Source: a virus. Taken from it: a DNA stretch of 64,000 nt. Location: IMG/VR virus record IMGVR_UViG_3300008259_003217, positions 1 to 64,000 of that record; one strand, 5' to 3'. Numbering within the stretch: the first letter of the stretch is position 1; each line of letters begins with the position of its first letter. Made by a program: the position numbers and the translations under genes. Below are positions 36,771 through 56,700 of the stretch, one piece after another. The notes beneath the pieces were generated by a model. It was not told the origin of the DNA. It made no database searches and saw only the letters and a list, made by a program, of their open reading frames with translations.

Positions 36771-39728
36771 ATGATATCACAAGAAGAAATTAAAAATTTC
36801 CTAGAAGGAAACGACCCGGAAGAATATATTGTTTCCGTAGAGTTTGATCACAAATCAGATCACATTTACAAAATTAAAGAAGTACCCGGTAAGGGTAAAA
36901 CAGTCCAACGAGACACATTAATAGCGTTCGCTTGGGTGGGTGACTTAAGAGGTTTAAACTTCTACAACTCGTCAAAGGATTTACAAAAACAAGCTATGAC
37001 CAAGTACGGTATAATGATTGAAAAATTACGTACCGATGGGAATGAAAGACTGGAATCTGGATTAACATTCATGGTTAAATCATTAAAAGGTTACAGGTCC
37101 TTGATTCAGTTCTTTAGAGATGGTGGATTGGATCCTTGGGGTGAAAATACTAAGGATAGAATATTAGTTCTAAATCCGGTAGAACAATACTTAATATCAA
37201 AAGAAAAAAGATTATTTAAAGGTTTTGAAGAATACAATGATATCACTAGACTTGTATTCGACTTGGAGACGACCGCTCTAGAACCTAAAGACGGTCGTAT
37301 ATTCATGATAGGAATTAAAACAAATAAAGGATACAAAAAAGTAATTGAGTGTTCTGATGAGGATGAAGAAAGAAGAGGAATTACCGAATTCTTTAGAATT
37401 ATTGACGAGATTAAACCATCAATAGTAGCTGGGTACAACTCATTTAACTTTGACTGGAATTGGATATTTGAAAGGTGTAAAATGTTAAACTTAGATATTA
37501 AAAGAATATGTAAGTCATTGTCCAAAGATAAATCAATATCACAAAAAGATTCATTACTAAAATTAGCTAATGAGGTTGAGAAATTCCCCCAGACTCAGAT
37601 ATGGGGTTATAATGTTATTGACATACTACATTCAGTTCGTAGAGCTCAAGCGATTAACTCAAACATTAAGGAAGCCGGTCTTAAGTATATCACAAAATTT
37701 ATTGACGCTGAAGCTGAAGATCGAATCTATATTGACCATACTAGAATTGGTCCAATGTATAGGGATAAGGAAGAATATTGGTTAAACATTAAAAATGGTA
37801 ATTATAAAAAGGTTGGTGTTGATCCGAATGTCGATGAGGTGTGTGAAAGAAGGTCTGACACATACATAAAAACAACTGGTGATGATATTGTTGAGAGGTA
37901 TCTTGATGATGACTTAGAAGAAACATTATTGGTTGATGATGAATATAATCAGGGATCTTTTCTTCTCGCGTCATTACTACCAACCACATATGAGAGGGTG
38001 TCCACCATGGGTACCGCTACTCTATGGAAAATATTAATGTTGGCTTGGTCATATAAAAATGGATTAGCTGTTCCAGGTAAACAAGAAAGACGTGAATTTG
38101 TCGGTGGATTATCTAGGTTAATAAAAACCGGGTACTCCAGAAATGTATTAAAACTTGACTACTCTTCACTATACCCGTCAATCCAATTAGTTCACGATGT
38201 ATTCCCGGAGTGTGATGTGACTGGAGTTATGAAAGGTTTATTATCTTACTTTAGGAACTCTCGTATTATGTATAAAAACTTAGCTGAAGAGTATTCAACA
38301 ATAGATAAGAAAAAATCATTATCATTTGACCGTAAACAATTACCAGTTAAGATTTTCATTAACTCCATGTTTGGTGCGTTATCAGCTCCACAAGTATTTC
38401 ACTGGGCTGATATCGATAAAGGTGAAATGATCACATGTACCGGTAGACAATATCTTCGTATGATGATCCATTTCTTCATGGATCGTGGGTATGTCCCGTT
38501 GGTGATGGATACCGATGGTATTAACTTTTCGGTACCTGATGGTACTGAATCCAGAAGATACGTCGGTAAGGGGTTAAACTGGAAAGTCGTTGAGGGTAAG
38601 GAATATGTTGGTGAGGAAGCTGATGTGATGGAGTTTAACGACCTAGCGATGAGAGGTGAAATGGCTCTAGACACTGATGGTCAATGGCCAGCGTGTATTA
38701 ATTTATCTAGAAAGAACTACGCTCTTATCACAGCTAAAGGAAAAATAAAGTTAACTGGTAATAGTATTAAGTCTAAGAAGATGCCAAAATACATTGAGGT
38801 ATTCTTAGAAAAAGGTATTAAGTTATTATTAGATGGTAAGGGTCAGGAATTTATTGAGTGGTACTATGAGTACTTACAAAAGATTTGTGATCAGAAAATA
38901 CCATTATCTGAGATCGCTAATAAGGGTAGGATAAAACAAACCGTAAAGGATTACAAAATACGTAGTACACAAAGAACAAAAGCTGGTAGTTTAATGTCTA
39001 GACAAGCTCACATGGAACTTGTTATTAAAGATAATTTAAATGTAAGTCTAGGTGATGTTATTTATTATGTTAATAATGGAACAAAAGTTTCCCAGGGGGA
39101 TGTTCAGAAAGTTAATAGACCAAAGAGGGGGTGGAGTGAGGAACAGGTAAGATTGTTCTTTTCAGAAGGTGAAAGATCTGATTATAAGAATAAAGAACAA
39201 TACTTATTAAACAATGGTTGGGAAAAATCCTGGTCAGACGATAACTGGGTACGTAGTGACTCTAAAAATAAAGAATCTAACACCGGAGTACCAACAGATG
39301 TAGCGTATAGATCGTCTAGTTCAGATTCGGTTATACAACTTAATTGTTATAGAATTGATCCGTCAGACTTGGAAAATAATCCGGGAATGTTAGGGGAATA
39401 CAACATACCAAGAGCTGTATCTACATTTAACAAACGAGTGGAACCACTACTAGTTGTGTTTAAAACAGAAATCCGTGATTCCATATTGGTAACAAAACCT
39501 GAAGATAGATCTTTCTTTACTAAAGAACAATCCCAACTAATAAACGGTCAACCATTTGAACAGAAAGATCAGGATGATCTAGATAGGGATGTTATGTATA
39601 TAACAAAAGATGAAAGATTTTTTTGGGAAAAAGTGGGTGTTAGTCCTTACCACATGTACAAAGACGCTGACCCAGTTATGTTAAAATATGTGGATGAGGG
39701 TGACTTAATCTATCTTCAGTCCATCTGA
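36771..39728 (+). CDS. DNA polymerase family B (T4 gp43-like replicative polymerase)
   Basis: 985 residues. Proofreading domain: Exo I VFDLETTALEPKDG (D164, E166) and Exo II AGYNSFNFDWNWIFERC (D228). An Exo III-like acidic Tyr motif lies in VERYLDDDLEET (about 375-385). Polymerase domain: motif A LKLDYSSLYPSIQL (D463), motif B KQLPVKIFINSMFGALSA (K-x-x-x-NSxxG), motif C VPLVMDTDGINFS (D580, D582). Motif C is DTDG, not the common DTDS. It replicates phage DNA 5' to 3' with 3'-5' proofreading. The last 170 residues are an extra C-terminal thumb/tail region. It sits alone between fibre and neck genes with its own host-type promoter, and its 3' end overlaps the convergent gene by 24 bases. Confidence 0.97.
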   Translation: MISQEEIKNFLEGNDPEEYIVSVEFDHKSDHIYKIKEVPGKGKTVQRDTLIAFAWVGDLRGLNFYNSSKDLQKQAMTKYGIMIEKLRTDGNERLESGLTFMVKSLKGYRSLIQFFRDGGLDPWGENTKDRILVLNPVEQYLISKEKRLFKGFEEYNDITRLVFDLETTALEPKDGRIFMIGIKTNKGYKKVIECSDEDEERRGITEFFRIIDEIKPSIVAGYNSFNFDWNWIFERCKMLNLDIKRICKSLSKDKSISQKDSLLKLANEVEKFPQTQIWGYNVIDILHSVRRAQAINSNIKEAGLKYITKFIDAEAEDRIYIDHTRIGPMYRDKEEYWLNIKNGNYKKVGVDPNVDEVCERRSDTYIKTTGDDIVERYLDDDLEETLLVDDEYNQGSFLLASLLPTTYERVSTMGTATLWKILMLAWSYKNGLAVPGKQERREFVGGLSRLIKTGYSRNVLKLDYSSLYPSIQLVHDVFPECDVTGVMKGLLSYFRNSRIMYKNLAEEYSTIDKKKSLSFDRKQLPVKIFINSMFGALSAPQVFHWADIDKGEMITCTGRQYLRMMIHFFMDRGYVPLVMDTDGINFSVPDGTESRRYVGKGLNWKVVEGKEYVGEEADVMEFNDLAMRGEMALDTDGQWPACINLSRKNYALITAKGKIKLTGNSIKSKKMPKYIEVFLEKGIKLLLDGKGQEFIEWYYEYLQKICDQKIPLSEIANKGRIKQTVKDYKIRSTQRTKAGSLMSRQAHMELVIKDNLNVSLGDVIYYVNNGTKVSQGDVQKVNRPKRGWSEEQVRLFFSEGERSDYKNKEQYLLNNGWEKSWSDDNWVRSDSKNKESNTGVPTDVAYRSSSSDSVIQLNCYRIDPSDLENNPGMLGEYNIPRAVSTFNKRVEPLLVVFKTEIRDSILVTKPEDRSFFTKEQSQLINGQPFEQKDQDDLDRDVMYITKDERFFWEKVGVSPYHMYKDADPVMLKYVDEGDLIYLQSI

Positions 39729-41205: not shown

Positions 41206-42303
41206 TTATTGTTTTGTTCTAAGAAGGTATAACTCATTAACAAATCCCCAATTAACGTGATTCCAAAACTTTTTAATATATTCATCACGTTTGTTTTGGT
41301 ATTTTAAATAATAAGCGTGTTCCCATAAATCTAAACCTAAAATTGGGTACCCCCCATCTTTAACTGTATTCATTAATGGGTTATCTTGGTTGGGTGTAGA
41401 TACAATTTTCAATCTATTTGTTTTGGTTAATACCAACCAAACCCATCCAGATCCGAATCGATCTTTAGCTACCGATTCAAATTCATCTTTCATTTTTTTA
41501 ATATTCCCGTATTGTTTTGTGATTTTCTCGTAAACTTCACCTTTTGGTACTTGTTTCTTTGGTGATAACATTTTCCAGAACAACGCGTGATTAAACGCAC
41601 CCCCAGCGTTGTTCCTAATTGTATCGTTATACTTACTTATGGTTCTAATAATACTTTCCAATTCTAAATCACCTTTGTAGTTTTTTTTGGACAACGCGTC
41701 ATTAAGTTTTTTAACATACCCTTTATAATGTTTGTTATAATGGATGTCCATTGTTTTTGGATCCACAAATTGACTCATTGATGAATATGAATATGGTAAT
41801 CTTTCTATACCAATTTTTTTCATTTCCATAAGTAATTCAGATCTTAAATTTGTTTTTTCCTGAATCACTAATTGTTCACTGATTAGGTTAAGTTTTTTTT
41901 CAACCCCATATAAACTTTCATAAACTAAATTTTCGTATTGTGGGTAGTCCCTTTCAAACATTTTAACCAGTCGACCAGCGTACGCGTTAGCTTCGTCTTC
42001 GTTTTGTCCACCAATATCCTCACCACGTTCACGTTTCAAAACATCTCGTTGGTATTCGTGAACCCATTCATGAGCTAATGTTCTTAATATGTCCCGGTTT
42101 AATCTATTTTTTGTTAGAACTTTTATACCTCGTTCTGGGTGGTGACCACCAGTTGACATACTACCAATTCTTTCACCAACAAAATTTATGGTAATTTCAC
42201 GTTTAATCGGAATTTTTTTCTGTAGGTATCTGATAAAGTCGTCGGTTAATTTTCTATCTTCCGAAGACATATCACATTTAATATGTTTGACATTAACTTT
42301 CAT
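41206..42303 (-). CDS. zinc-metallopeptidase-like domain fused to Mn-type superoxide dismutase
   Basis: 365 residues in two domains. Residues 1-130 contain LRTLAHEWVHEYQRD (HExxH at 78-82) and GGQNEDEANAYAGRLVKMF (third-ligand Glu at about 102-104), a zincin pattern. Residues 165-365 form a complete Fe/Mn superoxide dismutase: metal ligands H188 (MDIHYNKHYKGY), H239 (NNAGGAFNHALFW), D325 and H329 (GLDLWEHAYYL), gateway H192, and the Mn-type glutamine Q306 in STPNQDNPL; FGSGWVWLV is the core strand. The SOD converts superoxide to H2O2 and O2. No frameshift separates the domains and the linker (131-164) is helical. It sits between neck and helicase genes, so a virion or assembly role is possible. 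The fusion is unusual to my knowledge. Confidence 0.93.
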   Translation of the reverse strand: MKVNVKHIKCDMSSEDRKLTDDFIRYLQKKIPIKREITINFVGERIGSMSTGGHHPERGIKVLTKNRLNRDILRTLAHEWVHEYQRDVLKRERGEDIGGQNEDEANAYAGRLVKMFERDYPQYENLVYESLYGVEKKLNLISEQLVIQEKTNLRSELLMEMKKIGIERLPYSYSSMSQFVDPKTMDIHYNKHYKGYVKKLNDALSKKNYKGDLELESIIRTISKYNDTIRNNAGGAFNHALFWKMLSPKKQVPKGEVYEKITKQYGNIKKMKDEFESVAKDRFGSGWVWLVLTKTNRLKIVSTPNQDNPLMNTVKDGGYPILGLDLWEHAYYLKYQNKRDEYIKKFWNHVNWGFVNELYLLRTKQ

Positions 42304-42335: not shown

Positions 42336-44147
42336 CTATCTACGTTTGTTTATTAGATTTAAAATTTCCTCAACCATGTCACCACTAGTTTGTTCTATTT
42401 CCCCATCACCCATTACGGTTCTAATAACTTGTTTTTTATTATTTAATATATCATATATGATACCTTCTATTGTGTTGTCAAATAGGGGGTAGTAAACAAT
42501 GACATTATTCTTTTGACCGTATCGGTAAGCTCTGTCCTCAGCTTGGGAGTGTTCCGCCGGTACAAATGACAAATCGTTCATTATGACAACCTCAGCGGAT
42601 GTTAAAGTTAAACCAACACCAGCAGCTTTTAAATTCCCAACAAAAACTTTTATTTTTTCATTTTCCTGGAACTGATCAACGGAGTGTTGTCTTTGTTGTT
42701 TTGAACAACTACCGTCAAGATATACCGATTCTTTTTTGAAGTGGTTGTGTATTAACTGGAGTGTGTCTGTAAAGTTTGTGAAAATAATAACTTTCTTACC
42801 TTGTTCAATAATGTTTTCAGCAATCTCAATTGTTTGGTTAACTTTTTCATTCGCGATGATTTTTCTAACCTTCATTAATTTAGAAAACTGTACAGTTAAC
42901 GATGAAGATTCGTCTGGATTTTTATCATACCAATCATAGTATTCACCCATAACTTCCTCATACTCTTTTGATTTTAATCTTAAATAAATTGGGGATATTA
43001 TTTTTTCAGGTAAATCCAACACATCCTCCTTTAATCGTCGTAAAACTTGTTTTGATGTTCGGTCACGTAATTCTTCCAGGTTTGAGGCTCCCGAAACATT
43101 CCATACTTTCCTGTTACCAGCTCTGAATTGGTATCCCTGACAATACCTTATGGCGTACGCCATCCAGTTTTGAGCTACCGGACTTTCAATTATCGATAAC
43201 AAATTATAATAATTCATAGGTCTGGATGTCATTGGTGTACCAGTCAATAACCAAACATACTTAATTCCTTTCACAAAATTATTAATAACTTTGGTTCTTT
43301 GTGCTTGGGTATTTGAAATCATGTGTGCTTCATCCATAATAACCAAATCAAAATTTGACTGAGTAATTAACGACTCGTTTGGATTCTTGGGATCGTGGAA
43401 ATTTTTTATAATGTCATAGTTAACAATAACAAAATCGTGTTCGGTTGAAAATTTCTTACCTTCACAGATATAAACACTTCTGTCTGAATAATTCTCGATC
43501 TCTCTCTGCCAATTTATTTTTAACGACGCTGGACACACTATCAGTATCTTTTTGGATCCTGTTTCAAGTGCTGCGATGATGGTTGATGTTGTTTTACCAA
43601 GACCCATATCGTCAGCTAAAATATATCTTCTGGACCCAACAAGTTTTTCAATCGCTTCTTTTTGATGTTGTAGGGGTGGTCTATGTGAATACTTTGAGTA
43701 ATCTATAGTTACGTCCTTTGTGGTTTGTGATTTAATTAGTGATGATTTTGGAACCCAAAACTCACTTAGTTGATCCTCCTCAAAGAATTTAGCCCATATA
43801 TGGTACGATTTATCTTTCTCAACAAGAAGTTTCTCTACGTATACCTTTTCTGGTACCTTTAATAGATATTTTTCCTCTGAAAATTTTTGTGCGAAGTATG
43901 TATCCAACTCAACCCATTTTCTAGCCACTTTTGGTATGGTGTCAAAATAATTTACAATGTAGTCAGCTTGAGTTCTAGTCGGGTAAAATTTTTTATTTGT
44001 TTCTTTTTTGTTTTTTAAAAACAATATATAATTATTCGACCCGGAATACACGTCGAGTAAGTCTAAAGCTTTGTGTTCTATTAGTTGTTGTCCGATATCC
44101 AAAATACCTTTTATTTTAAAAATAACAAAAATTTTAATATTTATCAA
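42336..44147 (-). CDS. SNF2-family DNA helicase/translocase
   Basis: About 600 residues. N-terminal region (1-150) is a divergent DNA-binding or accessory part. Helicase motifs follow: I YILADDMGLGKTTSTI (K185), Ia ILIVCPASLKINWQ, II LVIMDEAHMI (272-275), III WLLTGTPMTSRPMNYYNL, IV KKVIIFTNFTDTLQLIHNHF, V VGNLKAAGVGLTLTSA and VI QAEDRAYRYGQKN. It is SMARCAL1/HepA-like in layout and would remodel or anneal DNA, playing a role like T4 UvsW in replication restart. No ATG precedes motif I: the start is TTG 44147 or TTG 44102, so the N-terminus is uncertain. The start lies 13 bases from the divergent gene at 44161. Confidence 0.92.
   Translation of the reverse strand: MINIKIFVIFKIKGILDIGQQLIEHKALDLLDVYSGSNNYILFLKNKKETNKKFYPTRTQADYIVNYFDTIPKVARKWVELDTYFAQKFSEEKYLLKVPEKVYVEKLLVEKDKSYHIWAKFFEEDQLSEFWVPKSSLIKSQTTKDVTIDYSKYSHRPPLQHQKEAIEKLVGSRRYILADDMGLGKTTSTIIAALETGSKKILIVCPASLKINWQREIENYSDRSVYICEGKKFSTEHDFVIVNYDIIKNFHDPKNPNESLITQSNFDLVIMDEAHMISNTQAQRTKVINNFVKGIKYVWLLTGTPMTSRPMNYYNLLSIIESPVAQNWMAYAIRYCQGYQFRAGNRKVWNVSGASNLEELRDRTSKQVLRRLKEDVLDLPEKIISPIYLRLKSKEYEEVMGEYYDWYDKNPDESSSLTVQFSKLMKVRKIIANEKVNQTIEIAENIIEQGKKVIIFTNFTDTLQLIHNHFKKESVYLDGSCSKQQRQHSVDQFQENEKIKVFVGNLKAAGVGLTLTSAEVVIMNDLSFVPAEHSQAEDRAYRYGQKNNVIVYYPLFDNTIEGIIYDILNNKKQVIRTVMGDGEIEQTSGDMVEEILNLINKRR
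44138..44144 (+). promoter_or_regulatory. TATTTAT motif, 16 nt before ATG
   Basis: ATATTTAT then CAATAAAAAGTTGACA and the ATG at 44161. It overlaps the 5' end of the divergent helicase gene if that gene starts at 44147. Confidence 0.45.
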
Positions 44148-45989: not shown

Positions 45990-48900
45990 ATGGCTACTAA
46001 CAGTAAAGTATTTGTACCAATATTCGTTAGAAATTACGATGAGTTCCAGACTTACTTTGGGGGTACAACACCTGAAAAATTTATAAACACACAAATCCCT
46101 AAATATGAAGCGGCTTATATAGCTAAAGCTTATTTACAACAATCAAATCAATTGTTTGTAACTAGAGTATTGGGTTTATCTGGTTATGACGCTGGACCAT
46201 CTTGGTCAATCATGACTAAAGCTAATGTTGATCCTAACACAATTGGTAGATATTGTACCGATCCAGTTATCGTGGATTGTTTACCAGCTTGTAATGAGTA
46301 TGAAAAAATTGGATATACATTCAATTTTACAGCTTGTACAAATTCAACTGGTCAATCAACATTTGATGTGTCTGGAATTGATCCTTTAATTTTAGAAAAA
46401 TTAAATCTACAGTTTGAACAATTCAACGGGTCCACCTCATCAATAAACGATTATTTAAATGATTTAATATATGACGTTATAGGATCTGTCGATCAGTCAT
46501 TAGCTGAAGCTACAACAATTAGTTACTTCGGATCAATTGATACTGAGGATTATAATATACTATCACCTGTGTTTACAGCTGAAACAAATGTATATGGTGT
46601 TCCTGATGTATCACTAAATGATACTGATTTGGAATCAGCGTTTAACGACCCTTGGTATTATTCACAATTTGATAATACAGGTAATGGTGAGTATTCAGGA
46701 TTCTCATTCTTTTCATATATTACTGGATTAACAAATGTTACACCTGTGACAACAACAACTACACAACCTGTACCACCACCCCCACCACCACCAGACCCTT
46801 GTGTTACACCTATTCCGACCCCAGTTCCAACAGCTACACCAGTTCCACTAATTGTTGAGTGTTACACTGGTTCGTTGATTGGTGTAATTTACACATATAC
46901 CGGTACTTCATATACTGAGTATGATGATTTAGTTATCGCTACTTTAAGATCTAGAGGTTTATCAAATTATACATCTAGTGAAAACCCAGGTTATGAAGTT
47001 TCAAACATTAATAACGTAACTTTAAATGTATCTGGGATTTATTCTGGAGCTACCAAAAATCCATATTTACCATTTGCTGTCAATGTAACAAATGATAATG
47101 GAACTAACTTTACATTTGAAACATCTTTCAGTATATCTGACTCAAACTACGTAACTAAAGTATTTGGTACCGACAACTTTGGTAAACCTAAAGGTGTTGT
47201 TCCTGTATTTTTAGAGGAGAGGTTCCAATCTTTATTGAACTTTGGTTTTAGAAAAGGATACATTAGGGGTATTAATTCTGAATTAGTAGCTTTAGATTCA
47301 GCTCAAAGTGAAACTTCGGATTCAATAGGGTGGTATTTAGATAGATATCAATCAGCTAACTCACCTTGGGTTGTTTCCGAATTGAGGGGTACTAAAGTGT
47401 ATAATCTATTTAAATTCTACACAGTATCTGATGGTGACGCAGCGAATACACAAGTAAAAATATCAATTATTAATATATCATTTAATAATTTAACATTTGA
47501 TGTTTTAGTTAGGGATTACTATGATACGGATTCAAACCCCGTGGTTTTAGAAAAGTTCACAAACTGTTCAATGAATCCAAATGAAAATAGTTTTGTAGCT
47601 AAAAAAATTGGTACACTTGACGGTGAGTACGAATTAAATTCAAAATACATAATGATTGAGATTAATGAGGACGCACCTAATGATTCACTACCTTGTGGTT
47701 TTGATGGGTATAATTTCCGTCAGTACGATGGTGTTAGATCTCCATTCCCTATCATCAAAACAAAATATTTCTTCCCTGGTGAAGTTTTCTTTAACCCACC
47801 ATTTGGATTTGCTAATGGTAATGATGACGCTACCACAGAACCTGGTGATAATATTCGAAGAACATATCTAGGTATCTCAAATAGTTTTGGGTATGACAGT
47901 AGTTACTACGAATATAAAGGTAAACGAAATCCTAGTTCTTCTTGTGACATTGATGGTGTTGAGTGGTCCTATTTAAGTAAAGGATTCCACATGGATAAAA
48001 ACGCTAGTGGAATTACAATCTCAAACGGATTCTCAACAAGTGGAACACCTAGATTCTATGTTGGTGACGCTTCGTTTAGTAGTGAACCAACAGATACCGC
48101 AAACCCATATTATAGACTGTACGCTCGTAAATTTACTTTATTAGTACAAGGTGGTTTTGATGGTTGGGATATCTATAGAGAATATAGAACAAATAAGGAT
48201 GAGTTTGTTTTAGGTAAATCCGGATTCTTGAATGGAGCTTGTCCTAGTGATAGGTACCCTAACGCATCTGGATGGGGAGCGTTTAAACAAATCTCTGTTG
48301 GTGATGGTACAACTGAATTCGCTAACACAGATTATTACGCTTACCTATTAGGTATTAAAACATTCTCCAATCCAGAATCTGTTAACATTAATGTATTTGT
48401 TACCCCTGGTATTGATTATGTAAATAATAGTAATTTGGTTGAGTCAGCGATAGATATGATCGAGAACGACAGAGCGGACTCTTTGTATATCACAACAACA
48501 CCAGATTATAATTTATATTTACCAACAACCACCGGAACGGATGGATTAATATACCCACAGGAAGCGGTTGATAATCTTGAGTTAATCGGACTTGATTCGA
48601 ATTACACAGCTACTTATTACCCTTGGGTATTAACAAGAGATACGGTAAACAATACACAAATTTACATACCACCTACAGCTGAGGTTACAAGAAACTTAGC
48701 TTTAACTGACAACATAGCGTTCCCATGGTTCGCAGCGGCAGGTTACACGAGAGGTATTGTTAACTCAATTAAAGCTCGTAAAAAATTAACACAAGAAGAT
48801 AGAGACGTGTTATATACGGGTAGAATTAACCCAATCGCTACCTTCGCTGATGTTGGTACAGTTATATGGGGTAATAAAACTTTACAGGTACGTGAATCAG

Positions 48901-49217
48901 CACTTGATAGAATTAACGTTAGACGATTACTACTACAAGCACGTAAATTGATTTCTGCGGTATCTGTAAGGTTATTGTTTGACCAAAACGATGAACAAGT
49001 TAGACAAGATTTCTTAAACTCAGTAAATCCAATCTTAGACGCAATTAGAAGAGATAGAGGTTTATATGACTTCCGAGTTACAGTATCATCAGATACTTCT
49101 GACTTAGATAGAAATCAGATGACTGGTAAAATATACATTAAACCAACAAGATCTCTTGAGTTTATTGATATAACATTCTATATCACACCAACCGGAGCTT
49201 CGTTTGATGATGTATAA
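45990..49217 (+). CDS. tail sheath protein, T4 gp18-like, with large inserts
   Basis: 1075 residues, far longer than T4 gp18 (659). The N-terminus starts almost directly in the domain (VFVPIFVRNYDEFQTYFGGT), without the usual N-terminal arm (PGVy-x-E) that links neighbouring subunits. The C-terminal sheath core is clear: PWFAAAGYTRGIVNSIKARK, LYTGRINPIATFADVGTVIW, GNKTLQVRESALDRINVRRL and LEFIDITFYITPTGASF. Inserts include TTTTTQPVPPPPPPPDPC followed by IPTPVPTATPVP at about residue 255-290, a rigid Pro/Thr linker projecting from the sheath. It forms the contractile sheath around the tube. Upstream sits a candidate operator/promoter; downstream a terminator at 49241. Confidence 0.93.
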   Translation: MATNSKVFVPIFVRNYDEFQTYFGGTTPEKFINTQIPKYEAAYIAKAYLQQSNQLFVTRVLGLSGYDAGPSWSIMTKANVDPNTIGRYCTDPVIVDCLPACNEYEKIGYTFNFTACTNSTGQSTFDVSGIDPLILEKLNLQFEQFNGSTSSINDYLNDLIYDVIGSVDQSLAEATTISYFGSIDTEDYNILSPVFTAETNVYGVPDVSLNDTDLESAFNDPWYYSQFDNTGNGEYSGFSFFSYITGLTNVTPVTTTTTQPVPPPPPPPDPCVTPIPTPVPTATPVPLIVECYTGSLIGVIYTYTGTSYTEYDDLVIATLRSRGLSNYTSSENPGYEVSNINNVTLNVSGIYSGATKNPYLPFAVNVTNDNGTNFTFETSFSISDSNYVTKVFGTDNFGKPKGVVPVFLEERFQSLLNFGFRKGYIRGINSELVALDSAQSETSDSIGWYLDRYQSANSPWVVSELRGTKVYNLFKFYTVSDGDAANTQVKISIINISFNNLTFDVLVRDYYDTDSNPVVLEKFTNCSMNPNENSFVAKKIGTLDGEYELNSKYIMIEINEDAPNDSLPCGFDGYNFRQYDGVRSPFPIIKTKYFFPGEVFFNPPFGFANGNDDATTEPGDNIRRTYLGISNSFGYDSSYYEYKGKRNPSSSCDIDGVEWSYLSKGFHMDKNASGITISNGFSTSGTPRFYVGDASFSSEPTDTANPYYRLYARKFTLLVQGGFDGWDIYREYRTNKDEFVLGKSGFLNGACPSDRYPNASGWGAFKQISVGDGTTEFANTDYYAYLLGIKTFSNPESVNINVFVTPGIDYVNNSNLVESAIDMIENDRADSLYITTTPDYNLYLPTTTGTDGLIYPQEAVDNLELIGLDSNYTATYYPWVLTRDTVNNTQIYIPPTAEVTRNLALTDNIAFPWFAAAGYTRGIVNSIKARKKLTQEDRDVLYTGRINPIATFADVGTVIWGNKTLQVRESALDRINVRRLLLQARKLISAVSVRLLFDQNDEQVRQDFLNSVNPILDAIRRDRGLYDFRVTVSSDTSDLDRNQMTGKIYIKPTRSLEFIDITFYITPTGASFDDV

Positions 49218-49240
49218 AAAACAAATAGTTTAAAAAAATT

Positions 49241-49271
49241 AAGGGGGATATTTGATTATCTCCCTTTTTTT
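49241..49271 (+). terminator. rho-independent terminator of tail-sheath transcript
   Basis: GGGGGATA (49243-49250) pairs with TATCTCCC (49257-49264), with one G-U pair and a TTTGAT loop, followed by a T7 run. It overlaps the -33 element of the next promoter. Confidence 0.9.
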
Positions 49272-49282
49272 ATTTATATTTG
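49251..49282 (+). promoter_or_regulatory. Bacteroidetes-type promoter of HAD-phosphatase gene
   Basis: TTTG (49251-49254), 20-nt spacer, TATATTTG (49275-49282). Identical spacing to the DNA polymerase promoter, giving a short leader of about 13-15 nt before the ATG at 49303. The TTTG lies in the loop of the preceding terminator. Confidence 0.75.
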
Positions 49283-49302
49283 TTAACCTTTAAAATTAAT
49301 TT

Positions 49303-50118
49303 ATGAAAAATATCACCGATTTTGGATTGAAGTATTACGCTTTTGATTGGGATGACAATATATTAAAAATGCCAACAATGGTTTATTTGAAAACAAAGGA
49401 TGATCGTGTCGTTGGTATGCCAACATATGAATACTCGTTTAAGAAATCTATAATCGGTAAAAGACAATTTAAATTTAATGGTAATTTAATTGTTGGGTAT
49501 GATAATGAACCGTTTAGGGATTTCCTACAGGGCGGTGACGATAGATTTATGATGGACATTAAGAAAGCTAAGATAGCTTCATCAGATATTTGGAAAGACT
49601 TTGTTGAGGCCATAAACAACGGATCAATATTTTCAATTATTACTGCTAGGGGTCACAACCCAGAAACAATTAAAAATGGTATAAAAAATCTTATAGATAT
49701 ATCATACGAGGGAATTGACAGGGATAAATTGATAAATAATCTAATTGGGTATCATATAATAACCAACTCAAAATTTAATAATGATTATGACTGGTTAATT
49801 AAGGATTATTTGGATAAGTGTAGGTTCTACCCAATAACTTATCTACATGGTACAATGTCGGATCCATCGGAGGGTAAAGTTAAAGCGATGAATGATTTTT
49901 TAAATTACATTGAGGAACAATCAAAAAAAGTAAGGATTAGTCTTGTTTCTTACGTTAATTTGGATTTTAACATTAAACCATCAATAGGATTTTCAGATGA
50001 TGATATAGATAATGTTAATTTAATTCGAGATAAAATTTTCCGGGAGGACTTCAATATTAGTATTTACCACACAAAAAACGGTAAAAAAGTTAAGATTGAC
50101 CTAGCAAAAGCTAATTAA
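49303..50118 (+). CDS. HAD-superfamily phosphatase-like protein
   Basis: 271 residues. HAD motif I is YYAFDWDDNILKMPT (the DxD nucleophile pair), motif II is FSIITARGHNPETI (Thr in ITAR), and motif IV is SIGFSDDDIDNVNL (acidic metal site). KVKAMNDFLNYI supplies the usual Lys. HAD enzymes remove phosphate from nucleotides, sugars or polynucleotide ends; the insert between motifs I and II (residues 30-85) is a cap. In phages such genes often occur in DNA repair or nucleotide metabolism. It has its own host-type promoter between late tail genes, suggesting early expression. Confidence 0.82.
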   Translation: MKNITDFGLKYYAFDWDDNILKMPTMVYLKTKDDRVVGMPTYEYSFKKSIIGKRQFKFNGNLIVGYDNEPFRDFLQGGDDRFMMDIKKAKIASSDIWKDFVEAINNGSIFSIITARGHNPETIKNGIKNLIDISYEGIDRDKLINNLIGYHIITNSKFNNDYDWLIKDYLDKCRFYPITYLHGTMSDPSEGKVKAMNDFLNYIEEQSKKVRISLVSYVNLDFNIKPSIGFSDDDIDNVNLIRDKIFREDFNISIYHTKNGKKVKIDLAKAN

Positions 50119-50220
50119 TTATTATAATTTATTAGCAGCTAGCTAATTAATTATTATATTTATATATCTTTTATTAGCAGCTAGCTAATTATTATTAATA
50201 TAAAAAGCTAGCTTGCTGGC
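50109..50220. repeat. AT-rich direct repeats with AGCTAGCT cores
   Basis: TTATTAGCAGCTAGCTAATTA occurs twice with 42-bp spacing (50129-50149 and 50171-50191), preceded by GCTAATTAATTATTATA (50110-50126 and 50142-50158). A third, diverged AGCTAGCTTGCTGGC lies at 50206-50220. Each core is nearly palindromic (TTAGC-AGCTA-GCTAA). The repeats start inside the last codons of the HAD gene. They could be protein binding sites, RNA hairpins, or a replication/recombination site; none can be shown by reading. Confidence 0.7.
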
Positions 50221-50225
50221 AATTA

Positions 50226-50233
50226 TATAAATA
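50226..50233 (+). promoter_or_regulatory. TATAAATA, T4-late-promoter-like box
   Basis: Exact octamer 81 nt before the tail-tube ATG, comparable to the 76 nt between the same octamer and the sheath start. A TATTTAT also occurs at 50274-50280, 34 nt from the ATG. Confidence 0.4.
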
Positions 50234-50314
50234 AAAAAAATAAAAGTCAATAGAATAAAAAATTTTTTTGGTATATTTATTATATGAAAATAAACAAGAC
50301 TAAAAAAATTTACT

Positions 50315-50803
50315 ATGGCTGATTTATTAATGAAAATGCCTATACCCTATGAACCTAAACGTGAGAACCGTTGGATTCTTAGATTCCCATCATCTTTAGG
50401 TATCAATGAATGGTACGTAGAGAGTACTTCAAGACCGAAACTTAAAATAGCTTCGACTGAAATCCCGTTCTTAAATACCTCAACATATGTAGCTGGACGA
50501 TTCAACTGGGAAGAAATCCCCGTTAAGTTTAGAGATCCAATTGGACCTTCAGCTTCACAAGCGGTTATGGAATGGATTCGTTTATGTGCTGAATCAGTTA
50601 CAGGTCGTATGGGTTACGCAGCTGGTTACAAAAAGAATGTTGATCTTGAAATGTTAGACCCAACTGGAGTTGTGGTTGAAAAGTGGATTTTGGAGGGAGC
50701 GTTCTTACTTGGTTACGATGGTGGAACACTAGATTATTCAAGTGACAAAATAGCTGGAATCTCAGCTAGTATCCGTATGGACCGTTGTATATTAGTTTAC
50801 TAA
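50315..50803 (+). CDS. tail tube protein, T4 gp19-like
   Basis: 162 residues, the normal length. PIPYEPKRENRWILRFPSSL, then WYVESTSRPKLKIASTEIPF, FLNTSTYVAGRFNWEEIPV, KFRDPIGPSASQAVMEWIRL and LEMLDPTGVVVEKWILEGAF match the gp19/Hcp-fold tail-tube pattern, where YVAGRF- and W-E-I-x-V-x-F strands build the inner barrel. It polymerises in hexameric rings inside the sheath. Located after the sheath as in T4, although a HAD gene and a repeat region intervene. Followed by a strong terminator. Confidence 0.95.
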   Translation: MADLLMKMPIPYEPKRENRWILRFPSSLGINEWYVESTSRPKLKIASTEIPFLNTSTYVAGRFNWEEIPVKFRDPIGPSASQAVMEWIRLCAESVTGRMGYAAGYKKNVDLEMLDPTGVVVEKWILEGAFLLGYDGGTLDYSSDKIAGISASIRMDRCILVY

Positions 50804-50822
50804 ATAATATTTACTTATATTG

Positions 50823-50858
50823 AAATCCGTGTACTATATTAGTGTATGCGGATTTTTT
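50823..50858 (+). terminator. rho-independent terminator after tail-tube gene
   Basis: AAATCCGTGTAC (50823-50834) pairs with GTATGCGGATTT (50844-50855), with two wobble pairs and a 9-nt loop, ending in TTTTTT. A strong terminator here would set tube mRNA apart from the downstream genes. Confidence 0.88.
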
Positions 50859-50887
50859 ATTATAATAAAACCTAATTTCAAATAACA

Positions 50888-51655
50888 ATGGAAACAAATG
50901 ATATAGTTAATTACGGTCAGACTGACTTTAATCTTCCACACGACGTGTTGGAATTACCTTCTGGTGGAATATTTTATAAATCTAAAAAGAAAAGTGTTAA
51001 GATTGGATATCTAACAGCTTCAGATGAAAACATTTTACTAAATAACGATAGTCGTAAATCAATAAAGGAAGCTATTGTTTTACCATTACTTAGAAATAAG
51101 TTATATGAGAGAGAACTTAGACCCGAAGAACTTTTAGAAGGTGACGTTGAATCAATATTAATATTTTTAAGAAATACATCATTTGGTCCTGAATATAAAT
51201 TAAGTGTTGAGGATCCAAAAACCGGTAAACAATTTGAAACATCAATAATGTTAGATAGGATGAATATTGTTCAATCTAAAGAGAAACCAAATGATGACGG
51301 TACATTTACCCTAACATTACCATTTTCAAAGAATACGGTTAAAGTTAAATTTTTGTCACTTTATGACACAATTGAAATTGATAAAATTCTAGATAGTTAC
51401 CCAGCTGGTCGTGTAACACCAACAGTAACCACAAGATTAAATAGAATGGTTGTGGAGTTAAATGGTAATCCAGATCGAAACGATATATCCACATTCTGTG
51501 AAAATATGCCAATCGGAGATTCAAAACACATTAGAAATTTTCTAAGAGACAACGAACCAAGATTAGACCTAAAAAAAGAAATTGTAGCCCCGTCTGGAGA
51601 AAAGGTGACCGTGAGTCTTGCCTTTGGGGTGGAATTTTTTCGGCCTTTCTTCTGA
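50888..51655 (+). CDS. gp26-like baseplate hub/tail-chaperone protein, zero-frame product
   Basis: 255 residues in the T4 gp26-type baseplate-hub family: DVLELPSGGIFYKSKKKSVK, VKIGYLTASDENILLNNDS, AIVLPLLRNKLYERELRPEE and LLEGDVESILIFLRNTSFGP follow the family pattern (LPS-G-x-Y, TA-x-DE-x-iL, LL-GD-x-x-iL-x-x-R-x-x-s-G), with a later domain through residue 250. It stops shortly after an unusual run GAA-TTT-TTT-CGG at 51632-51643. The coding pattern continues in the +1 frame to 51794, giving the missing C-terminal 45-50 residues. Gene position between tube and tape measure is where tail-assembly chaperones with programmed frameshifts normally lie. Confidence 0.85.
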   Translation: METNDIVNYGQTDFNLPHDVLELPSGGIFYKSKKKSVKIGYLTASDENILLNNDSRKSIKEAIVLPLLRNKLYERELRPEELLEGDVESILIFLRNTSFGPEYKLSVEDPKTGKQFETSIMLDRMNIVQSKEKPNDDGTFTLTLPFSKNTVKVKFLSLYDTIEIDKILDSYPAGRVTPTVTTRLNRMVVELNGNPDRNDISTFCENMPIGDSKHIRNFLRDNEPRLDLKKEIVAPSGEKVTVSLAFGVEFFRPFF

Positions 51656-51794
51656 TTACTCAAAAGTTATATTAGACGAATATTATTATCTTGCCAAACA
51701 CCTGGGAGTACAGTACGGTGAATTCTTTAAAATCCCAACGTATGTTCGTAAATATCTTCTTGAAAAAATATTTAATGAAGGAAAACGAAACTAA
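51636..51794 (+). CDS. gp26-like C-terminal extension in +1 frame
   Basis: 52 codons without their own start codon: FFGLSSDYSKVILDEYYYLA, then KHLGVQYGEFFKIPTYVRKY and LLEKIFNEGKRN. This resembles the normal C-terminus of gp26-like proteins (a helix with LxLD-E-x-x-x-L, then mP-x-x-x-R-x-x-L). Joining to the upstream frame needs skipping one T in TTTTTT, exactly where the P-site TTT can re-pair with TTC and the next zero-frame codon is CGG. Either programmed +1 frameshifting or an assembly/indel error explains it. No stop separates this frame from the shift point. Confidence 0.7.
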   Translation, partial: FFGLSSDYSKVILDEYYYLAKHLGVQYGEFFKIPTYVRKYLLEKIFNEGKRN

Positions 51795-51797
51795 AAA

Positions 51798-51804
51798 TAT
51801 TTAT
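51798..51804 (+). promoter_or_regulatory. TATTTAT motif, 16 nt before ATG
   Basis: ATATTTAT then CATTAAATATTATTAA and the ATG at 51821; begins 4 nt after the stop at 51794. Confidence 0.45.
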
Positions 51805-51820
51805 CATTAAATATTATTAA

Positions 51821-53677
51821 ATGGCTATATCAAGTACTTCCACCCTAGATCCAGAATTTGAGAAATTTAAAGGGTATCAAAAATACCAATCAACAATGTC
51901 ACGAGCTTTTGATTTGAATCAATCGTTCGTTAGTAGTATGGGTGATTTGGTAAATGTAACCAAAAGTATGGAAAAAATACTTGAGATATCAGCTGACTCA
52001 ATTACCGAACTTAATTCCTTAAAATTTTTAGATGAAGAAGCCACAAAAATACAAAACGCTTTTGGTGTAAGTAAACAAAGATTGAGTGAATTTAAAACAT
52101 TAATCGCTGACACCACACCTGAATTGATTAAAATGGGTTTTAGTCAAGAAGAATCTACCCAAGCCGTAATAGACATTACCAAAAGTTTAGGGACAAACGC
52201 TATGGTTGGGAAAGAGGCCGTTGTTGAGTTATCAGCGGTAAGTAGGTTAACCGGTGAAGATATCACAACACTTGCGTCTAGTTTTAGAGACGTTGGTGTG
52301 TCAATATATGACGCTGGTGATAGAATGAAGGAAGTTATTGATTACGCTAAAAACGTGGGTGTTAGTGTACAAGCGGTATCAAAAGGTGTTTTGACTAATC
52401 TAGACAAAATGAATCTTTACAATTTTGAAAACGGTGTTAAAGGTTTAGCTAAGATGGCAGCTCAAGCTTCTAGACTAGGTGTTGATATGTCACACGTATT
52501 TGCTATTGCTGAGAAGGTATTTAACCCGGAAGGTGCGATTGAGTTGGCAGCTGGGTTACAAAGATTGGGGGTTACAGCTAATGGTCTTTTAGACCCATTA
52601 AGAGCTATGGATTTAGCACGTAATGACCCAGAACAATTGGAAAAGGAATTAGTTAATATTACTAAAGAATGGACAACGTTTAATGAAAAAACCCAACAAT
52701 TTGAAATATTACCAGGTGCTAAAAGTAGGATTAGGGAAATAGCTAGTGAATTGAATATACCAGCTTCAGAATTGACAAAAATGTCAATAAGAGCTGCCGA
52801 CTTCGATAAAAAACTACAACAGATTAAATTTCCATCATTAGTTGGTACAGAAGACGAACAAACTCGAGAAATGATCGCTTCATTAGCAACACTATCAGGT
52901 GGAACCGCGGTTATTAAGGTTAGGGATGAACAAGGTAAAGAAGTCACTAAAAAAGTGGAAGATTTACTACCACAAGAAATTGAACAACTAAGAGAACAAG
53001 CTGCCGACCAAAATAAAAGTTTGGAGGAATTAGCTTATGATCAATTAAACACATTAGACGCTATAAACGCTAATCTTGGTTCTTTGTTGGGTAAATTAAC
53101 ACTTGGTAAAGCTACCGCAGCACCCGTCCAACGTGTTTTTGATGCTTTAACTAAAGTCCAAACAAAATACACCGAAATAGCTACCAGAGATGTAACAACA
53201 GAAACTATTAGAACTGGTGTTGATCAGTTTAGTGGGTTATTAGAAGATGCGGCTTTAAAATTAGCTAAAGGAGATGAGACAGGATCTTTTGAAGCTTTTA
53301 AAAACGCTTTCACATCTATGGGTAATTTAGAAAAAAATTTCCAAACGGGTGTTAAAAATAAGTTTGACGAATTTATCAAAGAATATCGACAAGAGTTAAC
53401 AAAAACGTACGAAAACCAATTAAACCCAAAACCAAAAAAAACCCAAGCTGAGTTAATTGTTGAGGAATTGAATGCAAAAAAAGAAGTTATTGAAAAGAAA
53501 GAGATAATAACAAAATCAACAGTTAACGCTAACATAACAATAACAGGTTCCGGTACATTAACAAACATGTCAACAACCGAGATCCAAAACACAATTAACA
53601 ACTGGTTAAGTACAGCTGAAGGAAAATCTTGGTTAAATAAATTGTTTGAGGTGAAAGATAGTGGATTAAGAAACTAA
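51821..53677 (+). CDS. tape measure-like tail protein
   Basis: 618 residues, nearly all helical with coiled-coil and Ala-rich stretches: DEEATKIQNAFGVSKQRLSE, LARNDPEQLEKELVNITKEW, LAKMAAQASRLGVDMSHVFA and GTNAMVGKEAVVELSAVSRL. Alternating Ser/Thr/Ala helices of this kind match tail tape measure proteins that run inside the tube and set tail length. The C-terminal 120 residues become charged and Lys/Glu-rich (PKPKKTQAELIVEELNAKKE). It follows the chaperone gene, matching the usual order tube, chaperone, tape measure. If it sets length at about 0.15 nm per residue, the tail would be near 90-95 nm, similar to T4. Confidence 0.8.
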   Translation: MAISSTSTLDPEFEKFKGYQKYQSTMSRAFDLNQSFVSSMGDLVNVTKSMEKILEISADSITELNSLKFLDEEATKIQNAFGVSKQRLSEFKTLIADTTPELIKMGFSQEESTQAVIDITKSLGTNAMVGKEAVVELSAVSRLTGEDITTLASSFRDVGVSIYDAGDRMKEVIDYAKNVGVSVQAVSKGVLTNLDKMNLYNFENGVKGLAKMAAQASRLGVDMSHVFAIAEKVFNPEGAIELAAGLQRLGVTANGLLDPLRAMDLARNDPEQLEKELVNITKEWTTFNEKTQQFEILPGAKSRIREIASELNIPASELTKMSIRAADFDKKLQQIKFPSLVGTEDEQTREMIASLATLSGGTAVIKVRDEQGKEVTKKVEDLLPQEIEQLREQAADQNKSLEELAYDQLNTLDAINANLGSLLGKLTLGKATAAPVQRVFDALTKVQTKYTEIATRDVTTETIRTGVDQFSGLLEDAALKLAKGDETGSFEAFKNAFTSMGNLEKNFQTGVKNKFDEFIKEYRQELTKTYENQLNPKPKKTQAELIVEELNAKKEVIEKKEIITKSTVNANITITGSGTLTNMSTTEIQNTINNWLSTAEGKSWLNKLFEVKDSGLRN

Positions 53678-53705
53678 TCAAACATTAAAAAATGAACCCA
53701 AATCG

Positions 53706-53712
53706 TATTTAT
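53706..53712 (+). promoter_or_regulatory. TATTTAT motif, 14 nt before ATG
   Basis: GTATTTAT then AAAATAAAAGGAGA and the ATG at 53727. The AGGAG is too close to the start (2 nt) to be a normal Shine-Dalgarno site. Confidence 0.45.
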
Positions 53713-53726
53713 AAAATAAAAGGAGA

Positions 53727-56700
53727 ATGTCAAGTTCACTATCATTTGTATCAACAGAATCTTTTAGGAATAACCTATTAGTTAAAAACTTACCACCATA
53801 CTCTGTTACTGGGGTTTTTGGTCCGGTAACAAACGTTGTACAACAAACAAATTTAAATGTTTTTAGTGTTGTTGATTCACCAAACAATCTAGTATCCACA
53901 AATCAATTCGCTAATTCGGTTTACCCACTAAATGAGTATGGACCCGATGGTGGGTTTGATAACCCAATAAATGTCAATAATTTATTACCCGTTGACCCAA
54001 ATCAAGGTCCTTACGATATAAACGACTCAAATCTAGAGTTGGTTAATGAATTTTTTATTGATTCAGCTTATGTAAAAAACATATTTGGTCCAGAAGATGG
54101 GTATAAAGATTTATATATTGTAACAGATAACTATAACGTTAATCAATATTTCCTACCGTACGCCGACATGTTTATCAATTCATCGTACAGTACGTTCTCA
54201 ATGATATTCCAGGACAACCCAACAGGATCTAATGGTTTGTTATCACAAGATAGTTTTATTGTTAAAATAGGATCAACACAACTAAAGGGTGCTTTCCAAG
54301 AAAGGATTGCCGCTGAAATATCACAAGCTACTGTAGGTAGATTTAATTTAGACACATTACAAGATCCGTTCACAGCTGCTATGGTGGCGACAGGTAAACA
54401 ACCTTTTTTTGATAAGGATTGGAAAATTACCGTACCCGAATCACCAGTATTAGCTGCTGTATCATTAGCTAATAGATTGACTGGAACTTATTTTCCGGTA
54501 TCATTTATTCCTGGTGATTATTTTAATGACCCAGACCCAATACAAAGTCCCCAGGTTGAATCAGCACTTGGTGTGGTGAATAAACTCACAGGTGGATTCT
54601 TAGGTCCGGTATTAAACAAATTTAGAAACCCGTCAGAGACTTTCGTACAAAATACAGGTAACGGTCAACGATCTGTATTATTTAAAAGTTTAGATTATAA
54701 TAGATATAAACCAGCTTATAACCGAGGACTAACCCAAGGACTAACAACCGCTATTGGTCGTTTATTTGATGAAGATAGACCAAATACCGGTGGGTATTAT
54801 GTCGGTAGTCAAGACGCTGAACCTTCACAAATAACATCACCAGCTAATCAGGTACCCGTAGATAGATTTGGTAAACAAACCCAATCATTAGTATACGGTC
54901 CATCTGAACTTGGTATTTTATATGAAGGTAATGAAAGTAAATTAAACTTCGGATTAAAAGGTAAATCGTACTCTAACGATGGGGGTATTACCGGTCAAAT
55001 GGTTTGGACATCACCAAAGTACAAGGGTGACGCTGGACTTAGAGTTGGTAAAAATGGTAAGAAAGGTAGTTTAGATCCTGGGTTTGAAAGTTTAACCACT
55101 CAGTATAATCAGTACCAATCTACCGAAGTGGGTGAATTTAAACCAGGATCCATTTTGGATAACACACAAAGGTTAATCGACTCAGCTGATAACGTTTCTG
55201 GTATAGCTAGATTAAAACATGTGGGTAACGCAATTAACCAGGTCTCAAAGGTGTTTAACGATGGGTATAAGGAACTAACCAAAGGATCACAAGTACTTTC
55301 ATATACAAACGACACAACAGGTGTTGAGGAGGGTATTGAGTATTGTAGAGTTTTCACTAAAGATACCCCGTATTTTACATATGATGACTTACAAAAGACT
55401 GAAGGTATAACAATAGCCAATAGACGATTTAGTTACTCTGTGTTGGATAATACATACAATTTAAATATAGCTCCATTAAAAAATCCAGGATCAACTAACA
55501 TTATTGATAATAAAGTTAAAAAGTATATGTTCTCGATTGAGAATTTAGCTTGGAGAACCTCAGATAAACCGGGATACACCGTTAGTGAATTACCTGTTTG
55601 TGAACAAGGACCAAATGGGGGTAGAATCATGTGGTTCCCACCGTATGATTTACAATTCTCCGATGATAGTAAACCTGATTTTAATCAAACAAATTTCCTT
55701 GGACGACCTGAACCAATATACACATATAAAAACACAAGTCGTAGTGGAACGATTAGTTGGAAAATAGTTGTTGACCACCCCCAAATAATGAATAAAATTG
55801 TTACGGAACAATTAAAAAATATACCAAAAGAACGAATTGATTCAATAATGGATTCATTTTTCGCTGGTTGTGTTAAATATGATTTGTATGAATTAGCGGC
55901 TAAATTCAATCAAATACCAGTAAGTGACTTATATACTTATCAAGACATACTTAAGAGTCCAAGATTAACCGATGAGGAACTACAATCAGTAGCGGTCGAA
56001 ATAAGACCCGATCCGGTTATAAACATTTTAATAAAAGAAAACGCTGAAGGTGCCGCTGGTACGAATCAGGATGGAGTTGGGGGTAATGGAACAATTACCG
56101 AAGAACAAACAGTTGATAAAGATGTGAGTAGTGAATTTAATGACATTATAGATTTAGGTTTCTATTTTGACAATAACTGTCCTACTTGTAAAAATGATAC
56201 CGGTACCGACGGTAAAGAACCATATAACAAGTGGTATGATTTATATGTTGGTAAAAAGGATACATATATAAACAACGCACCCTATGAAGTTAGAACTGAT
56301 AAAACATATTCTGGATCATCTGTACCTGACTTCTTCAATAAAGTTGTTGAAGCCAACTATAAAAAAATCCAAGATGTTTTAATACCTAAAATAACAAAGG
56401 TGGTATCAGAACAAAAAGGTACATTTGAATTAAAGTTAATAGCTTCAGCTTCATCACCAAATACTGACGATTATAATATAAACATATCAATAAGAAGAGA
56501 TGACGCGGTAAAACGTTGGTTTAGAGCTCAAAAAATCGGTGAAAAAACATTCGCTGAATGGGAGAAAGACGGAAAAATCACATTCTTAAAGAGTGATACT
56601 CTTGGTGAGGGAACTGTAATAGCTAAAGCTATTGACGCTACTTTAACACCAGACCCTAATAACCCAGAATTAAATGACGTAATACCACCACAACAAGATG

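Follow-up and report, generated by a model that had tools for sequence, protein, structure and literature searches.

In T4, the tail assembly chaperones gp26 and gp51 stand to each other as a short and a long form: gp26 matches the family PF12322 over its full length, and gp51 matches it via residues 1-201, with about 48 more residues beyond. Where they treat these genes, PRFect (PMC10885494) and the Adele paper (PMC12846349) credit Vladimirov et al. 2022 with the short and long chaperone genes and the poly-T sites of T4-like phages, and the latter paper describes poly-T sites of the -1 kind both for the gp26 gene of T4-like phages and for the TAC genes of Vandenendeviridae and Andersonviridae (PMC12846349). 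By way of these citing papers, the gp26/gp51 chaperone identity and the -1 poly-T sites are already in print. For the opposite direction, the phage cases given in the relevant part of a 2016 review are few, namely Listeria phages and a probable haloarchaeal virus case (PMC5009743). The motif UUU_CGN is, in the pertinent passages of the papers concerned, the +1 site of influenza A PA-X (PMC3498833) and a proposed +1 site of plant amalgaviruses (PMC5052127). In the open-access literature we found no report of +1 shifting in a T4-type chaperone gene, although Vladimirov et al. 2022 may mention it.

We analyzed a 64,000-nucleotide stretch of viral DNA (hereafter the window; positions 1 to 64,000 of IMG/VR record IMGVR_UViG_3300008259_003217), in which one gene very probably gives rise to two nested tail assembly chaperones via a +1 frameshift. 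By its profile matches, the gene is a member of the T4 gp26/gp51 tail assembly chaperone family (PF12322), as its 0-frame protein scores 44.1 bits against a cut-off of 24.5 (Table 1). It is the one PF12322 match in the 159,868-base record, and a T4-like second gene is absent there. Its 3' end reads GAA TTT TTT CGG CCT TTC TTC TGA, so that both the TGA stop at 51653-51655 and the shift point GAA-TTT-TTT-CGG, which an earlier note on this DNA had picked out, are indeed present. The open +1 frame spans 51615-51794 (translation FGLSSDYSKVILDEYYYLAKHLGVQYGEFFKIPTYVRKYLLEKIFNEGKRN); its tail encodes FGLSSDYSK...KRN before the TAA, in agreement with the continuation of about 50 codons described at first reading. 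With this tail as its C-terminal part, the predicted long product (gp51-like, TAC-NC) would comprise 301 residues in total.

Table 1. Positions of the chaperone gene, its candidate shift site and neighboring features in the window.
Feature	Position	Strand	Evidence
Tail tube protein	50315..50803	+	phrog_4542, E 1.1e-21
0-frame gene, short product, gp26-like tail assembly chaperone (TAC-N), 255 aa	50888..51655	+	PF12322, E 2.6e-11; phrog_150, E 4.4e-15
Conserved GGGG upstream of the T run	51626..51629	+	GGG at Gly247 in 27/28
Candidate shift site TTT TTT CGG (0-frame codons)	51635..51643	+	In phase in 73/73 loci; codon bias
Proposed P-site TTT	51638-51640	+	+1 model
Proposed A-site CGG	51641-51643	+	+1 model; skipped base would be C51641
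+1-frame tail, 50 residues after the shift, then TAA	51642..51794	+	0 stops in 28/28; pN/pS 0.54; tail profile kinship; fused translation
Putative tape measure protein	51821..53677	+	Gene order; weak BLAST match to immuto tape measure, E 0.003

The claim that the +1 frame has no start codon was nearly right, since two TTG codons (51618 and 51624) are the only common starts in this ORF, which has no ATG and no GTG. These TTG codons would offer the tail a start of its own, making it a separate small protein translated after the first gene, and several records do annotate a small separate ORF at this place. We nevertheless regard this explanation as extremely unlikely. Besides the want of ATG or GTG in the window, the earliest of the three start codons ATG, GTG and TTG to appear in the +1 ORF of one locus (L057) is already within the tail, 73 bases beyond the beginning of the T run; the homologous C-terminus in T4 belongs to one long protein, gp51; and a slip site would be needless if the tail had its own start.

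As to the gene's surroundings, its proposed place between the tail tube and tape measure genes is supported on the upstream side by the tube match, whereas the downstream gene is putatively assigned by its order and a weak match (Table 1), and its protein has no family match in profile searches. Upstream of the tube gene lie an unusually long tail sheath protein of 1075 residues (45990-49217, +), in which the sheath-family match is limited to the C-terminal part, and, between the sheath and tube genes, a 271-residue ORF (49303-50118, +) without a Pfam match. Additionally, the window encodes a SNF2-type helicase (42336-44147, -) and an Fe/Mn superoxide dismutase (41206-42303, -; PF00081 and PF02777 on residues 167-357), in which the part of about 160 residues ahead of the dismutase contains, by eye, a HEWVH zinc-peptidase-like motif with no family match. 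A family B DNA polymerase (36771-39728, +) is closest, at 22-29% identity, to the polymerases of Salinibacter and Nostoc/Anabaena phages. A pattern search of genome contigs for a host returned 52 stretches that fit the pattern and zero relatives, and the 159,868-base record has no tRNA matches. Because the polymerase is so distant from its nearest phage counterparts, assigning a Bacteroidota host would be no more than a guess.

Searching IMG/VR at the protein level yielded 72 loci, which together with the record's own locus (L001) make 73, 42 of them distinct. The octamer TTTTTTCG occurs in identical phase in all 73 (own plus 72 IMG/VR; 42 distinct), and so does TTT-TTT-CGN. In every one of these loci UUU_CGN is in phase with the 0 frame and the ORF downstream of it lies in +1, and a match to the +1-frame tail is present in 72/73, the exception (L045) ending at the contig end. 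From the 40 distinct complete loci we took 28 representatives that are less than 90% identical over 130 bases. In none of the 28 does the +1 tail contain a stop, against a mean of 6.6 in the 0 frame and 4.3 in the -1 frame of the same stretch. Likewise, pN/pS of the tail is 0.54 in the +1 frame, compared with 1.27 in the 0 frame and 1.10 in the -1 frame, while the 36 codons upstream of the site give a 0-frame pN/pS of 0.45. The tail is under purifying selection in the +1 frame only. Nearly every position of the overlap 3' of the site is conserved, which is the expectation if both frames matter.

These data bear directly on the simplest objection, raised in the earlier note itself, that a one-base sequencing or assembly error in the T6 run would look the same; one base would indeed fuse both frames. 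Because 42 distinct sequences from independent contigs, as well as several isolates, show the same arrangement, and because selection acts on the tail frame, such an error has a practically negligible probability. The alignment to relatives that had been suggested as a check shows the T run to be kept in all 28 representatives and followed by CGN in each. No uninterrupted ORF turned up within this lineage; an uninterrupted long copy was seen only in the T4-type phages, where it is a second gene. Deep conservation of the site and of the tail supports, at the level of sequence, a programmed +1 frameshift in a tail-chaperone gene, as first proposed.

Codon choice points to the same site. Among the 28 representatives, the two Phe codons of the site are TTT in 56/56 cases, as opposed to 140/166 at six other conserved Phe columns, and the slip Arg codon is CGN in 28/28, versus 9/84 at three other conserved Arg columns, where 75/84 are AGR. 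Thus, TTT_TTT_CGN is kept at the site despite the codon choice usual for this gene. Specifically, the slip Arg codon is CGG in 11, CGC in 9 and CGT in 8 representatives, and never CGA, AGA or AGG; the absence of CGA may perhaps be due to the +1 codon that CGA would create. In 14 window ORFs (7,135 codons), CGG accounts for 4 and CGC for 0 of 295 Arg codons. CGG is therefore rarely used, as had been supposed, and a P-site TTT moving onto TTC ahead of a rare CGG is compatible with these counts. Rarity of the A-site codon does not extend to every relative, given that UGG, found at this position in some of them, occurs at 10.8 per 1000 in the window. T6C is itself frequent (23 per strand in the window); what is special about the site is its phase and conserved context rather than the heptamer. 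We also considered avoidance of in-frame TTT CGN and dropped it, as the 14 ORFs contain one instance, the slip site itself, against about 2.4 expected from codon frequencies.

More distant relatives extend this arrangement. Megablast of 48500-56000 against phages returned zero matches, and tblastn against the phage collection returned two, Mel-JY01 and GXN1. Mel-JY01 has AAC TTT TTT TGG with the tail in +1, where its record annotates two overlapping hypothetical genes. An IMG/VR search from Mel-JY01 matched at least 600 stretches. Among the best 80, 78 reach the gene end (L124 and L153 end before it), and these 78 carry TTT TTT TGG (73), CTT TTT TGG (3) or TTT TTT TAC (2) with the tail in +1; some of the tails end at contig ends, such as L104 and L165. 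Site and +1 tail are also found in six phages of the annotated collection. The tail is in +1 after GAA TTC TTT CGT in GXN1, TTT CTT TGG in immuto, TTT TTT TGG in RM378, TTT TTT CAC in SP-15 and AAC TTT CTA in LR756508, and in the immuto and SP-15 records the place of the tail is taken by nothing but a hypothetical ORF, 36 or 39 residues long. Immuto is an isolate of the +1 branch that infects Flavobacterium sp. LMO8, and its gene lies at 149798-150538 of its record. All of these sites, like those of the window and Mel types, offer a UUU codon with C or U as the next base. One additional partial locus was left out of the comparison. The 595-kb phage record LR756511 (L175, 2600-2900) has a tail-like stretch in another frame, with a junction that obeys no slip rule.

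We also read the gp26 ends of ten further records. In eight of them (P-SSM7, ACG-2014g, S-SSM4, V09, phiWae14, Asswx_1, Moby and RL2RES), TTT TTC or TTT TTG lies two codons 5' of the stop and the tail is in -1, which fits U_UUU_UUN. The annotated gp51 of P-SSM7 and ACG-2014g, 31 residues long, covers just the tail end, and the tail of S-SSM4 is unannotated. Tulanevirus ZHF and Klebsiella phage Roth22 have two genes and are T4-like. U_UUU_UUC sites with the gp51 tail in the gp26 -1 frame were seen in cyanophages and a KVP40-like phage (L077 3669-3869, L078 3672-3872, L081 3762-3941, L086 3558-3758). In the Ackermannviridae GG32 and cp19 (L082 3415-3560, L084 3703-3850), a gp51-like tail lies in -1 and the site, GAG ATT TTC ATT TAA, is no standard heptamer. 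The octamer TTTTTTCG is common to the window and the cyanophages and is read in mirror phase, in that the 0 frame of each corresponds to the tail frame of the other. The window gene does not have an X_XXY_YYZ site with the tail in -1; its tail is in +1.

The trees were built from hand-chosen rows (window type, 10 of 28, and Mel type, 12 of 62 distinct, in the first; 6 and 6 in the second). In the unrooted 48-row tree, the 28 +1 rows fall on one side of a branch (100/100) and the 10 rows of two-gene phages form another group (96/90), which requires two changes in total, the minimum possible. The same groups were recovered (100/100 and 96/92) in a 30-row tree without RM378 and other long branches, in which forcing the -1 rows into one clade was not rejected (p-AU 0.41).

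The distant +1 relatives also inform the direction of the slip. A +1 slip requires only that the P-site tRNA re-pair one base on (UUU to UUC or UUU), and a -2 slip requires a matching codon two bases back. A -2 shift in the style of phage Mu, named in the earlier note as the alternative, would take the P-site tRNA-Phe back two bases within T6 and leave the tail unchanged while lengthening the product by a single residue, to FFFG where a +1 slip gives FFG. The T6 run permits such re-pairing, as it does in all members with T6, and both TTT codons are fixed in 28/28 representatives. By contrast, re-pairing two bases back is impossible in GXN1 and LR756508, which keep the tail in the same frame and belong to the same tree group as the window. 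In immuto it is impossible at the TTT codon, though possible at CTT, and for a +1 slip in that phage UUU_CUU and CUU_UGG are both possible and equally likely. Since GXN1 and LR756508 cannot re-pair at -2, +1 is the economical reading, and a -2 shift in the window gene is improbable. The same phages speak against transcriptional slippage on the T run, by which mixed mRNAs would arise and each be read normally. Such slippage would suit an AT-rich phage with a run of six or seven T, yet the longest T run at the site is three bases in GXN1, immuto and LR756508, with the frame relation unchanged, and slippage leaves the fixed CGN codon of the window clade unexplained. We therefore consider it very improbable, more so than the -2 shift.

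The tails of the different groups are linked by a chain of profile matches: window type to Mel type (E 1.8e-13), Mel type to -1 type (E 2.4e-6) and -1 type to seven T4-type gp51 C-termini (E 6e-13). The direct comparison of window-type tails with T4-type gp51 C-termini is weak (E 0.03), so that the shifted product is gp51-like through intermediates. The match of the fused product to phrog_150 reaches position 238 of 282, and the tail itself is thus outside it. An hhalign comparison of the fused alignment with single T4 gp51 was uninformative and was set aside. In line with the TAC-N/TAC-NC pattern, the two predicted products share an N-terminus, and a conserved C-terminal extension lies in another frame.

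AlphaFold2 modeling of the fused product from 37 rows gave a best model with a mean pLDDT of 84.9 and a pTM of 0.74, the other four models reaching 66.5-68.1, and the predicted tail has two longer helices and one short helix. Foldseek against viral predictions retrieved the SP-15 hub protein (E 4.9e-17) and Aeromonas phage 25 gp26 (E 4.6e-6); against the PDB it retrieved nothing at E <=0.001. In a second PDB comparison, the HK97 tail assembly chaperone 2ob9 ranked first of 17 chains with Z >=2 (Z 4.9, rmsd 6.0, 97 aligned). The likeness of the predicted fold to the HK97 chaperone is suggestive, no more.

We also looked for stimulators of the slip. The glycine codon within the conserved GGGG (Table 1) stands out against 13/112 GGG at four other Gly columns, although Gly237 is equally fixed as GGA. 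As an SD-like stimulator, the GGGG was rejected: it lies 8 bases from the P-site codon, unlike the prfB element, which has a spacing of 3, and it is missing from Mel-JY01-type sites. Folding and consensus prediction found no conserved stimulatory RNA structure. The mean z was -0.70 upstream, -0.23 and -0.78 downstream, and -1.47 for -40..+60, and the consensus structure encloses the slip run, where a translating ribosome would have opened it.

Taken together, we infer the following course for the window gene. Most ribosomes would terminate at the TGA and release the short, gp26-like TAC-N. Some would pause while UUU occupies the P site and the rare CGG the A site; there tRNA-Phe would shift from UUU onto the overlapping UUC, and translation would resume in +1 at GGC to complete the gp51-like TAC-NC. 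By analogy with lambda gpG/gpGT, the short form would bind the tape measure and the extra tail would recruit tube subunits. The predicted transframe tryptic peptide is VTVSLAFGVEFFGLSSDYSK for the +1 slip and would contain one more F for a -2 slip.

At the level of the family, we think it rather probable that a single chaperone family has come to its short and long forms in three ways, namely a -1 shift, a +1 shift and gene duplication. The +1 branch would stem from a single switch of direction, perhaps through a small indel that changed the phase of the T run, and would then have diversified into the P-site re-pairing sites UUU_CGN, UUU_UGG, UUU_UAC, UUU_CAC and UUU_CUN; phages of Flavobacterium, Rhodothermus and Bacillus are among the members of the large environmental lineage over which these sites are spread. 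If so, the family would be a natural experiment on the requirements that a bacterial ribosome has for a +1 shift at a sense codon. The sites form a deeply conserved set at sense codons, in which many natural variants follow one re-pairing rule. A +1 shift at them would also account for ORFs annotated only as truncated or hypothetical genes, as in immuto and SP-15, and would imply that the direction of a shift can change within a single gene family.

Compared with known systems, the window gene is closest in product to T4 gp26/gp51: both belong to PF12322, and both pair a short form with a long one built on the same N-terminal domain, to which the long one adds a C-terminal helical tail (predicted, in the window). 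However, T4 uses two separate genes, whereas here one gene and a frameshift would suffice. With the -1 poly-T TAC sites it shares the gene position, the presumed purpose and a T run near the end of TAC-N, but the window gene reads the run in another phase, so that the tail is in +1 rather than -1. Lambda gpG/gpGT and other tail chaperone frameshifts likewise produce two nested products from a gene that adjoins the tail tube gene, with another direction and slip sequence. The slip motif UUU_CGN and the proposed P-site move from UUU to UUC are those of PA-X and the amalgaviruses, which concern unrelated genes in eukaryotic hosts; as the window gene is a bacteriophage gene, a bacterial ribosome would act at its site. 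Finally, prfB (RF2) and Listeria phage tsh also shift +1 by P-site re-pairing on the bacterial ribosome, but with a stop codon in the A site, where the window gene has a sense codon.
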